Shown here one piece after another: positions 21,047-31,210 of a stretch of DNA of 38,740 nt. The notes beneath the pieces are model-generated. The model saw only the letters and a program-made list of their open reading frames with translations. It ran no database searches and was not told the DNA's origin. How positions within the stretch are numbered: the stretch's first letter is position 1; each line of letters starts with the position of its first letter. The translations under genes were made by a program, and so were the position numbers. The DNA comes from Oceanospirillaceae bacterium. Lineage in GTDB: Bacteria; Pseudomonadota; Gammaproteobacteria; Pseudomonadales; Balneatricaceae. The stretch spans positions 1-38,740 of the forward strand of contig JABXIM010000173.1 in assembly GCA_013373085.1 (NCBI GenBank), in the 5' to 3' direction.

Positions 21047-21814
21047 TTACGAAGCGCCGAGCAACGCCCGCAGGCGCTCGAGATCTTCCGGTGTATCGAC
21101 GCCGGGCGGCGGCAGCTCCTGCGCCTCGGCGACATGGATACGGGCGCCATTCCAGAGCGCACGCAGCTGCTCCAGACACTCGGTGTTTTCCACAGCCGCC
21201 GGCGGCCACTGCACGAAATCGTTCAGCAGCTGCACCCGATAACCGTAGATGCCGATATGCCGCTGCCAGGAAAAGCCCGCCGGCAGGTCATCGCGCGGCT
21301 GGCCGGCCGCAAAGGCATCGCGCGGCCACGGGATGGTGGCGCGGCTGAAGTACAACGCCATGCCGAAGCGGTCCGTCACCACCTTGACGATGTTCGGGTT
21401 GAGCATACCCGCCACATCCTCGATCGGCTCGGAAAGCGTGGCAATGCCAGCCTGCGGATTGGCCGCGAGATTCGCCGCCACCTGGTTGATGATCGAGGGC
21501 GGCACCAGCGGCTCGTCGCCCTGGACGTTGACGACAATCTCGTCACTGCCAAAACCCAGACGGCTCACCACTTCCTGCAGACGGTCGGTACCGGAGGGGT
21601 GGTCCGCCGACGTCAGACACACCTCGGCGCCGAAACCGCGCGCGGCGTCGGCGATACGGTCATCGTCGGTTGCCACCAGCACCCGGCTCGCATCGCTCTG
21701 ACAGGCGCGTTCGTAGACATGCTGAACCATCGGCTTGCCGGCGATATCGGCCAGCGGCTTGCCGGGAAAACGGCTGGACCCGTAACGGGCCGGGATGATG
21801 ACACTGAAGCTCAT
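21047..21814 (-). CDS. kdsB: CMP-KDO synthetase
   Basis: 255 aa, full length. N-terminal [20 protein letters not shown] is the nucleotide-binding signature; further motifs [20 protein letters not shown] and [12 protein letters not shown] bind CTP, Mg2+ and KDO. It makes CMP-KDO for the inner core of lipopolysaccharide. Its ATG overlaps the Trm112-like stop (ATGA), and together with lpxK upstream it forms a lipid A/KDO cluster as in Pseudomonas. Confidence 0.97.
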
Positions 21815-22014
21815 TTGCGGGCCTGCTTCCTCAGGTGTTCACGTTCGTCTTCGGTGAGCTTGCGCGCCTCGGTTTCCAGCATCACCGGGATGTCGTCCCG
21901 GATCGGGTAGGCCAGGCCGCTGGCGCTGCAGAACAGTTCGTTCGTTTCCCGATGGTAATGCAGCGGTGCCTTCGACACCGGGCAGACCAGTATATCGAGC
22001 AGTTTGGTATCCAT
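21811..22014 (-). CDS. Trm112-family small protein (YcaR-like)
   Basis: 67 aa. Matches the bacterial Trm112 group: [17 protein letters not shown], then [20 protein letters not shown] and a charged C-terminal helix. Eukaryotic Trm112 activates methyltransferases; the bacterial role next to kdsB is not settled. It lies between lpxK and kdsB, the normal order, but is separated from lpxK by the 266-bp palindromic element. A GAGAG lies before the ATG. Confidence 0.92.
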
Positions 22015-22040
22015 GTTCGACTCTCAGTTGGCGGAGATAC

Positions 22041-22306
22041 ACAGCTTTTTCAGGTAGTAATGTCAGAACTCAGAGCCCCGGAAAGCGTCACAGGGCAAGG
22101 CGCAGTCGCAAAGGCATGGTGGTTCCATGTCGAGCGAGTGCAACGCAGCCTGGTGGCGTTTTCCGGGGCTCCCGCAGGGCCGCCTTGGCAGCGTCCGCCC
22201 CTTCGTTGCTCATCGCTTATGTAGAGTAACTACACCGCGCGATTCACGCCTTGCCGCAAACGCAGCCAAGAAGGCTGAGCGTGACATTACTACCTGAAAG
22301 AGCTGT
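22041..22306. repeat. nested-palindrome intergenic element, copy 1
   Basis: 266 bp bounded by 25-bp inverted arms (22041-22065 and 22282-22306; 24 of 25 pairs, the exception T-G). Two hairpin units lie inside. Unit A is 22074-22170 (97 bp; base 22074-22087/22157-22170, 13 of 14 pairs plus one G-T) and carries AAGGCATGGTGG at 22111-22122. Unit B is 22180-22274 (base 11 of 14 pairs; apical TGTAG/CTACA at 22220-22234). The right arm contains the last codons and TAG stop of lpxK; the left arm ends 26 bp before the Trm112-like start. Copy 2 at 30943 has the same layout. I recognise no named family. Confidence 0.85.
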
Positions 22307-23279
22307 TACTATTTAACTTCGATGCCAGCGCCGATTCAAATGCTGGCGCGAGCCGGGCCTCGACCGGCAGGTACCAGCTGTCCGGCGGCGCCACGTCGCG
22401 GCACTTGACCGCATCCTTCTCGGTCATGACCAGCGGCAGCGGTTCATCGAACGCCAGGTCCTCAGCGCTGAAGGCATGATGATCGGCGAAGCGGTGGGGC
22501 ACCGGATCGAACCCCAGGCGGCGCAGCGTATCGTAAAAGCGCTGCGGGTTTCCGATGCCGGCCACCGCATGCACGCGGCGCGCACCCGCCCACTCCTCGG
22601 CCGCGCAACGTCTGCCGTCATCGAGGGAAACCAGTTGCCCCGGCGTCAGCTGCATACGGTGGGCACCCGGCGGACAGAAGCGTCCATCGCCATTCACCAC
22701 CACCAGATCGACCTCGGCCATCCGCCCCGGCGGCTCGCGCAACGGCCCCTCCGGCAGGCAACGGCCATTACCCAGCCCGCGCTCGCTGTCCAGCACCAGA
22801 ATTTCGACATGCCGGCCCAGCGCATAATGCTGCAGGCCGTCGTCGCTGATGATGAGGTCGCAGTCGGAAGTTTCCAGCAGATAACGCGCCGCCGCGGGAC
22901 GATCCGGATCGATCACCAGCGGGCAGCCGCTGCGACCGGCGATCAGCAGCGGTTCGTCGCCGGTCTCGGCGGCCGCGCCGTCCGGCCGTACCGCGAACGG
23001 ATGGGCGGGCGGACTGGCGCCGTAGCCGCGACTGATAACGCCCGGCCGGTAGCCGTGCCGGCGGGCCCAGTCGATAAGGTAGAGCACCAGCGGAGTCTTG
23101 CCGGTGCCGCCGACGGTGATATTGCCGACCACGATCAGCGGCACCGGCGGCTGCCAGACGCGTTCGGGATGATCGATAAAGCCCTGGCGCCGGCGGCGCG
23201 ACAGGCAGCGGAACAGCCATTCGAGAGGACGCAGCAGGCGCAGCCAGGCACTGCCCCGGTACCAGGCCCCTACCAGCAT
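22290..23279 (-). CDS. lpxK: tetraacyldisaccharide 4'-kinase
   Basis: 329 aa, full length. The N-terminal membrane-associated segment is followed by the Walker A region VGNITVGGTGKTPLV (about residues 50-64), VISRGYG, and DCDLIISDDGLQHYAL with catalytic and metal residues. LpxK phosphorylates the 4' position of the lipid A precursor at the inner membrane. It starts one base inside the exbD stop (TAATG overlap). The C-terminus is serine/asparagine-rich and its last codons lie in the arm of the palindromic element. Confidence 0.96.
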   Translation of the reverse strand: MLVGAWYRGSAWLRLLRPLEWLFRCLSRRRRQGFIDHPERVWQPPVPLIVVGNITVGGTGKTPLVLYLIDWARRHGYRPGVISRGYGASPPAHPFAVRPDGAAAETGDEPLLIAGRSGCPLVIDPDRPAAARYLLETSDCDLIISDDGLQHYALGRHVEILVLDSERGLGNGRCLPEGPLREPPGRMAEVDLVVVNGDGRFCPPGAHRMQLTPGQLVSLDDGRRCAAEEWAGARRVHAVAGIGNPQRFYDTLRRLGFDPVPHRFADHHAFSAEDLAFDEPLPLVMTEKDAVKCRDVAPPDSWYLPVEARLAPAFESALASKLNSNSSFR

Positions 23280-30089: not shown

Positions 30090-30954
30090 TTCCCATCCGG
30101 CGCTCGCCACCGAGCTGCTCGAGTCGTTCGATGCCCTGAGCCGGGCACTCACCCGTTTCAGCACCCTGATGCAGGACAGCGACCGCGCGCTCTGGCTGCC
30201 GCTGCACGACAGCGAACTCGAGGTCGGCGAAAAAGCCATGGCGATCTCGTTGATCGCCGATATCTGGTACCGCGACGGTCAGGACGGCCGCCGCACCCGC
30301 AGTCGTCACGGCCTGATCGGTGCGGGCCCCGAGCTGCTCGACGCCACCCGGGCGCTGAACGCCTGCAAAGCGGACTTTCAACAGGCCGCGACCAGCCTCA
30401 ACGCCGATCATCTGCGCGAACTGCCGCTGCGCCTGGCGCACCGCGCCGGAGCCCTGGCGGAAATTTTGAATCTCCACGGCCTCGGCCGCATCCATCTCAA
30501 GCAGTGCTACCGGCAGGTACCGCTGCTCGACCGGACCCCGACCCGGGTCGGGTTCAACTGGTACAGCAGCGGCCGCAGCATCCGCAGACTCAGTGCGGCC
30601 GATGCGATGAAGATGCTGCTGAAACTCGACCAGAGCCAGCCCCATGTGCAACTCCAGCTCGAACGCCTGTCGCCGCTGCCGCAGCATACGCCCCTGGCCC
30701 AGCTGCAGACGCAGGTTCCGGTGATGCGCGCCAACATCGGCTGGAAAACCGACGCCGGCTGGGAACGCCAGGCACGCAACTGCCCGTTGCCGCTGGTGTT
30801 CCCACTGGACGCCGGCAAACCGCTGCCGGAGCACAACAGACCCGACCTGATGCCGCCGATCGGGCGCCAGCGCGCCGAGCGCTCCGACGCCCGCATCGAC
30901 CCCGACCCTTTTTTGCCAAGCCTGCGCATTCATAAATATCTGAGGAGCCTATGA
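30082..30954 (+). CDS. tus: Tus-family replication-terminus site-binding protein
   Basis: 290 aa against 309 for E. coli Tus. Identification rests on remembered sequence similarity in the C-terminal half. LLDRTPTRVGFNWYSSG followed by SIRRLSAADAMKMLLKL matches the Tus segment with VLHDPATLRFGWANKH and its following helix. The final third (VPVMRANIGWKTD, ARNCPLPLVFP, and the last strand LPSLRIHKYL) matches Tus VKVQPIARVWYKGD, HACPTPLIALI and IPRLHLYV in order and spacing. Tus binds Ter sites and blocks forks in one direction. The first 100 residues are helical and divergent. It overlaps the PilZ gene, and its stop lies inside an arm of palindromic element copy 2. Confidence 0.8.
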   Translation: MPDSHPALATELLESFDALSRALTRFSTLMQDSDRALWLPLHDSELEVGEKAMAISLIADIWYRDGQDGRRTRSRHGLIGAGPELLDATRALNACKADFQQAATSLNADHLRELPLRLAHRAGALAEILNLHGLGRIHLKQCYRQVPLLDRTPTRVGFNWYSSGRSIRRLSAADAMKMLLKLDQSQPHVQLQLERLSPLPQHTPLAQLQTQVPVMRANIGWKTDAGWERQARNCPLPLVFPLDAGKPLPEHNRPDLMPPIGRQRAERSDARIDPDPFLPSLRIHKYLRSL

Positions 30955-31210
30955 GTAAGTCCCAATCGGTCTCTGGCTTGCAGCGCGAGCTGGAGTCGAG
31001 GCGCAGTTTCGAAGGCATGGTGGGGCCCTGTCGAGAAGCTGCAACAAAGAGTCCTGCTCGCGCTGCAAGCCCCGGAGGGCGGCTCCTGAAGCACTCATCT
31101 GCCGCGTTGCGGCGTTTGGAAAGGGCTACGGCCATTCCCTTCACACCGCGCCTTGCAGCTCCGCGCTTCAGGAGCCGCAGAGGACAACTGGGACTTATTC
31201 ATAGGCTCCT
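30943..31210. repeat. nested-palindrome intergenic element, copy 2
   Basis: 268 bp bounded by 22-bp inverted arms (30943-30964 and 31189-31210; 21 of 22 pairs, the exception G-T). Unit A is 30975-31071 (97 bp; base 30975-30990/31056-31071, 16 perfect pairs) with the core AAGGCATGGTGG at 31012-31023. Unit B is 31079-31178 (base 31079-31092/31165-31178, 14 perfect pairs; apical AAGGG/CCCTT at 31121-31141). The left arm includes the last codons and TGA of tus; the right arm ends three bases before the next gene's ATG. Layout and core agree with copy 1, while arm and stem sequences differ. Confidence 0.87.

Follow-up and report, generated by a model that had tools for sequence, protein, structure and literature searches.

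The 266-bp element at 22041-22306 is, in our opinion, best explained as a MITE with a conserved twin-hairpin core, the units of which would act as RNA within read-through transcripts. We give this reading a probability of roughly one half, the RNA form of the units and its use being the conditional part of it. The inner units themselves are strongly supported as one structured family under selection on structure, with pairing partners that change.

The element at the lpxK-trm112 junction and its kin

The window, that is, the whole stretch of 38,740 nucleotides analysed here, is one entire contig of G000, a source genome of 5.78 Mb. The element is an insertion at the junction of lpxK and trm112 (Table 1), and the same junction is free of it in all six congeners (other genomes of the genus), in each of which LpxK was found. 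As the initial annotation had stated, these 266 bp are made up of paired outer arms and two inner imperfect palindromes. The same holds for the length of unit A, which is 97 nt (its arms showing 83% pairing across 24 nt), and for the offsets of the core AAGGCATGGTGG, which begins at 22111 and 31012, i.e., 70 and 69 nt from the starts of the two window elements at 22041 and 30943. These are the only exact matches of the core, and with up to two mismatches it gave eight matches against a chance expectation of 3.4. The insertion replaced the last codons of lpxK (22290-22306), and the end of this gene differs in the congeners. A simple consensus search of 21950-22400 returned no promoter- or terminator-like sites.

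Table 1. Coordinates of the genes and element parts in the window.
Feature	Position	Strand	Remarks
KdsB-type gene	21047-21814		PF02348; comes after trm112
trm112	21814-22014	-	PF03966
left terminal inverted repeat, type F1 (..TTTCAGGWAGTAATGTC)	22041-22065	+	25 nt; 96% complementary to 22282-22306
hairpin unit A (CAAGGCG..TGGTT..GCAACG)	22074-22170	sense +	RNA fold; model R1 match 22076-22165, 83.8 bits
linker mini-hairpin CCC-GCA-GGG	22171-22179		between units A and B; read from sequence
hairpin unit B, motif of unit A inverted	22178-22276	sense -	RNA fold; model R1 match 22184-22273, minus, 71.1 bits
right terminal inverted repeat	22282-22306	-	overlaps lpxK 3' end; stop codon 22290-22292
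lpxK (ORF)	22290-23279	-	PF02606
second window element, like core within IS5-like ends	30943-31210		model R1 units 30977-31066 (+, 81.9 bits) and 31085-31175 (-, 67.7 bits)

The element has the features of a MITE: it is shorter than 500 bp, bounded by terminal inverted repeats, present in dispersed copies and absent from otherwise corresponding empty sites. Since 266 bp is too short for it, the element probably lacks a transposase gene of its own. A putative target duplication would read as TA or TAC. A blastn search of G000 recovered, besides the window copy, four other near-full-length copies (74-77% identity) and several partial ones, and one copy of this type was present in the congener G005. 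The F1 end sequence, with up to two mismatches, was found at 21 places in G000, G003 and G005 among the seven genomes searched; eight of these places were read, and they comprised three core-less end-to-end palindromes and five single ends. Around the latter, Pfam assigned five of eight ORFs to a methyltransferase, an amino-acid permease, a DctM transporter, a Crp-type regulator and a DUF1285 protein, the other three being without a match. The ends of 22041-22306, at up to 25% mismatches, were likewise absent from the 30 DDE_Tnp_1 loci read (92 matches, nine genomes). Thus, neither at these 30 loci nor at the five single-end places did we see a transposase-bearing element with such ends, and in the comparison with the 30 loci the element does not behave as an IS5-derived MITE.

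The second window element does. It is one of a larger set of elements with different ends (GGRRCCTRYGAAYAAGTCCC, which we take to be like the IS5 end); this set has further copies in G000, and some copies are flanked by YTAR-like duplications, e.g., TTAG (L016) and CTAA (L022). In congeners, IS5-group insertion sequences 1162-1195 bp long (L202, L204, L217) have similar ends, with differences at 2-5 of 20-21 positions; the proteins of L202 and L211 match PF01609 and PF05598. Copies of this second kind also lie at contig ends of G000 (e.g., C144, C131, C158, C1, C136 and C190), where they probably break the assembly, and the copy numbers given for this genome are therefore lower bounds. In the congener G005 (L189:206-1077, i.e., G005:C5:84105-84976), a span of 872 bp between IS5-like ends contains the core in broken halves, together with an open gene for an Lrp/AsnC-type regulator that was apparently acquired by this element.

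Fold, covariation and the strand that folds

The units share one general plan: a long stem that varies freely is followed by a conserved internal loop (CAAGGCG / GCAACG), after which come another stem, another internal loop and, at the tip, a short hairpin. Folded as RNA, unit A reached -66 kcal/mol on the plus strand (z -8.9) and -47.4 on the minus strand (z -5.5), while unit B reached -47.6 kcal/mol on the minus strand (z -3.75) and -33.5 on the plus strand (z -1.79, with 8 of 200 shuffles as good). The covariance model R1 recovered all four window units (Table 1), the next-best match in the window scoring 15.9 bits (E 0.13). As for known RNA families, Rfam at the gathering score matched the window only at one tRNA (12-85). 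Five carrier loci searched at E<=5 returned eight Rfam matches, none of which reached the gathering score; three of these were to miRNA precursors and lay on units.

Covariation was counted in two alignments. A1 contains 17 units aligned by sequence in sense orientation, and the structure counted was the fold of window unit A: an outer stem of 18 bp, the internal loop CAAGGCG/GCAACG with one invariant G-C, a stem of 8 bp, a 3x2 loop and a stem of 7 bp. In A1, 88.4% of cells were paired and 30 of the 34 pairs showed a double change. As the structure derives from a row of A1 itself (one of 17), the percentage paired is favoured and, to a smaller degree, the double changes. Cells with a double change numbered 177, against a shuffled mean of 53.2 and against 34-44 when the partner was slid by 1-3 columns; none of 500 shuffles reached the observed values on any of the five measures. 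A2 contains 133 distinct rows found by the model and fitted to the structure. Here, 89.6% of cells were paired, the covariation score was 0.850 versus 0.104-0.152 with slid pairings, and double-change cells numbered 1594 versus 462.7 in shuffles. Four of the five measures were above shuffles in A2, the exception being the count of pairs that show a double change at all (33, a value reached by 60 of 500 shuffles). The initial annotation had claimed selection on structure with changed partners for arms and units alike and had named covariation among further copies beforehand as the test. Both alignments leave this claim intact for the inner units; the outer arms have to be taken out of it, being the terminal inverted repeats of different transposon kinds.

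A transition in a stem leaves a G.T pair on one strand and an A.C pair on the other, and the ratio of the two can thus be used to ask which strand folds. On the units' own sense strand, G.T to A.C was 116:21, 68:8 and 84:11 in the three stems P1, P2 and P3 of 107 non-redundant units. Model matches could favour G.U; outer-stem pairs counted rigidly in the family copies first found by blastn gave 23:3 and 18:4, a count that lessens this bias only in part, as the unit borders are still model-derived. First units showed 89:16 and second units 53:18. Since G.T far exceeds A.C on the sense strand, it is one strand of each unit that is folded, and selection for folding of the sense strand in each unit is supported. 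Part of the G.T excess could also arise from strand-biased mutation. The sense-strand excess, together with folding, means that unit A is read on the plus strand and unit B on the minus strand. The earlier idea of G-T mismatches on the plus strand, on which both copies were said to be collinear, therefore applies to unit A; unit B has its wobble excess on its own sense strand, which is minus, and sense is not plus throughout. Nor do we favour cruciform extrusion, for which structure probing had been suggested at that stage, as the selected state: a cruciform folds both strands alike, yet G.T exceeds A.C 5.5 to 8.5 times on one of them (2.9 times for second units). An exception would be a cruciform of which the sense hairpin alone is recognised. 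In the terminal repeats of 10 elements, nine G.T and three A.C wobbles were counted, a comparison that is uninformative, as no strand is defined for the element taken in its entirety.

The arrangement of the units is equally regular. In 81 distinct loci, drawn from 91 with matches among the 92 searched, all 51 neighbouring pairs were in '+-' order, with a gap of 16-21 nt in 49 of them, and 30 loci had a single match (the model did not report the second unit of L009 and L077). Nine single-contig genomes, picked for carrying units, contained 130 unit matches: 43 '+-' pairs, one '--' pair (in G272), no '-+' pair and 42 singles. The linker CCC-NNN-GGG was present in 44 of the 51 two-unit loci. Neighbouring units thus face each other, so that the first unit of a pair is sense on either strand. 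Given how many matches are single, the pair is not indispensable; one-unit forms are exemplified by L030 and L190. Palindromes of two ends without any unit, about 50-65 bp long and some with target-like flanks, occur at L083, L093, L099 (around 1500), L192:135-200 and L234-L236. It is possible that such core-less forms are deletion products or a smaller mobile form.

We infer the RNA form from three of these observations: G.U pairs are frequent, unit B is significant as RNA and not as DNA, and the order is sense-first. The main competitor, less likely in our view yet to be taken seriously, accepts the same MITE and supposes that the units are folded single-stranded DNA, the sense strand folding during replication or transposition and being bound by a host or transposition protein, in the way that integron integrase binds folded attC sites. 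A structure-specific DNA-binding protein would leave behind this kind of selection, which acts on a single folded strand whose internal loops are conserved, and the core-less derivatives look like slippage loss of a hairpin, which would fit a core that folds in single-stranded DNA. Stability does not separate the two forms, the sense strand being the more stable in 91 of 103 units with RNA parameters and in 94 of 103 with DNA parameters. What speaks for RNA is, in the first place, window unit B, whose z of -3.75 as RNA compares with -1.73 and -1.23 for its two strands as DNA, neither clearly above shuffles. In the second place, G.T pairs, more usual in RNA when frequent, abound in the units, and one of them is present in 17/17 units of A1 and is the commonest at its position in A2 (83/128). 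Finally, no gene recurs next to the units: of 469 ORFs of at least 100 aa around 55 loci, compared with one another, none was related to ORFs from two or more further loci, a result with which a partner acting in trans would be compatible.

Ends, genomes and replicons

Recognisable inverted ends were found in 47 of the 51 two-unit loci in one count and in 48 after one locus was re-read; 13 of 47 left arms start with CTAG. Clustering of the 48 arms above the shuffled 99.9% level, which may split distant relatives, yielded 18 clusters, one with 20 loci having IS5-like ends and 13 with one locus each. Cores may be close where ends are not. Core identity was 81% over 188 nt between L133 and L157, 81% over 175 nt between L133 and L150, and 75% over 160 nt between L010 and L134; the end scores of these pairs were 4, 4 and 3, respectively, against a shuffled 99% level of 8. 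Such like cores within unlike transposon ends show, as far as the compared sequences go, that it is the core that persists, with ends that can be replaced, and they suggest that a widespread folded RNA or DNA cargo rides on differing transposons.

The breadth of this pattern also bears on the more ordinary idea of a functionless MITE, with palindromes of fold-back origin maintained by homology among copies. Some copies have indeed lost units, and MITEs commonly yield stably folding transcripts, according to the available part of one account (PMC10969869). We nevertheless consider the idea improbable: the loops are conserved while double changes replace the stems, the G.T excess is strand-specific, and one core geometry recurs in 18 end clusters and in 94 of 299 genomes. 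Least probable are recombination or resolution sites read by a recombinase as duplex DNA (inverted half-sites GGCGCA / GTTGCA): each unit does carry conserved short motifs in inverted order, but a site read as duplex needs neither covarying stems outside the motif nor a one-strand G.T bias.

Units were matched by model R1 in 22 of 57 relatives (35 without a match) and, phylum-wide, in 94 of 299 genomes representing 45 of 154 genera (205 without a match), both totals including G000; among good-quality phylum-wide genomes the fraction was 61/239. One family (f51) accounted for 53 of the 94 positive genomes, and the other 41 comprised 11 from the same order (including G000), 19 from the same class and 11 from other classes. 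Marinobacter zhejiangensis is one of the carriers. In the plasmid collection, model-confirmed carriers were records of Pseudomonas aeruginosa, Azotobacter chroococcum, Halomonas sp., Vibrio campbellii and V. tritonius. The window element and the Marinobacter copy as queries had no match among these plasmid records; other copies as queries matched in Azotobacter, Pseudomonas, Halomonas and Vibrio, and for L156 the only match was a stretch of 63 nt on a Deinococcus plasmid, lying outside the unit match of L156. Phages gave no match with two element queries, and E. coli genomes gave none with a copy from G296.

Gene tables, which do not contain RNA genes, had no feature on the element for two plasmids and a hypothetical protein for a third. 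The V. tritonius plasmid pMA35 has a 'hypothetical protein' within an element (L259:1581-1748), probably a spurious ORF. Genome G272 (2.7 Mb, one contig) has 35 unit matches and no PF01609 match at E<=0.001, which suggests that its mobilising enzyme is of another kind, was missed or is gone.

Proposed mode of action and comparison with known systems

Overall, we picture the element as follows. A transposase acting in trans would move the non-autonomous 266-bp element via its outer arms. The core consists of two units of about 97 nt in opposite orientation, usually with the CCC-NNN-GGG mini-hairpin in the middle. Read along either strand, the order is sense-then-antisense, so that RNA polymerase coming from either side would first meet a sense hairpin, and the units may then work as RNA within read-through transcripts. 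A possible benefit is that a transcription unit of the kind of lpxK-trm112-kdsB would tolerate the element and suffer little polarity; alternatively, the units may bind a conserved host factor. Beyond this single locus, it is tempting to suppose, though we put it forward tentatively, that the persisting lineage is the folded twin-hairpin core itself, previously undescribed and most likely a non-coding RNA, which would be spreading through proteobacteria with transposase families as interchangeable vehicles and with ends being exchanged.

The usual view of MITEs is that they are reduced versions of a single insertion sequence and that their interiors carry no meaning. In the elements described here, the interior is conserved and the ends change across the phylum-wide carriers. 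This makes it testable why some non-autonomous elements succeed, be it through a useful or protective RNA or through an aid to replication or transposition. The covariance model provides a means of finding further elements of this sort.

Among known structures, integron attC sites are comparable in part: each is a long imperfect hairpin with a stem free to vary, of which one strand is recognised by structure, and in these respects the units are alike. However, when the A1 consensus CAAGGCGC..GCAACGC was read by eye against the attC boxes RYYYAAC / GTTRRRY, they did not correspond; CAAGGCG / GCAACG are unlike these R boxes, and the units form inverted pairs inside transposon ends. REP sequences and BIMEs are similar in having palindromic units in many copies, with alternating orientation in BIMEs, as the accessible parts of the sources describe them (PMC3733652, PMC2817692). 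REPs, in the same partial account, measure 20-40 bp and carry GTAG or CGTC tags (PMC3733652), whereas the units here span about 97 nt, have internal loops and lie within transposon ends; neither tag is found among the invariant columns of A1.

QMITE2, Correia and ERIC/RU elements are likewise short, non-coding, mobile and folding repeats, but in the portions of the literature at hand each is described with its own ends, and a folded core common to many end types does not appear there (PMC10969869, PMC4853749, PMC2229807, PMC5896051, PMC2759123). The closest published system that we found is MITEPsy1 of Pseudomonas syringae. The available part of its description presents a non-coding MITE of 100 nt that moves in vivo and duplicates a CTAG or YTAA target, whose ends the authors ascribed to the IS5-family ISPsy2 and for which Blast revealed similar sequences in other Pseudomonas, Marinobacter and Klebsiella (PMC3189936). 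Compared by description only, it differs from our element in length (100 versus 266 nt), and that part of the text mentions neither a folded core or covariation nor twin units or an exchange of ends (PMC3189936). A literature search, with subscription papers and preprints outside its reach, yielded no account of the core described here. Judging from these searches, what appears to be new is a MITE whose conserved part is the twin-hairpin core.
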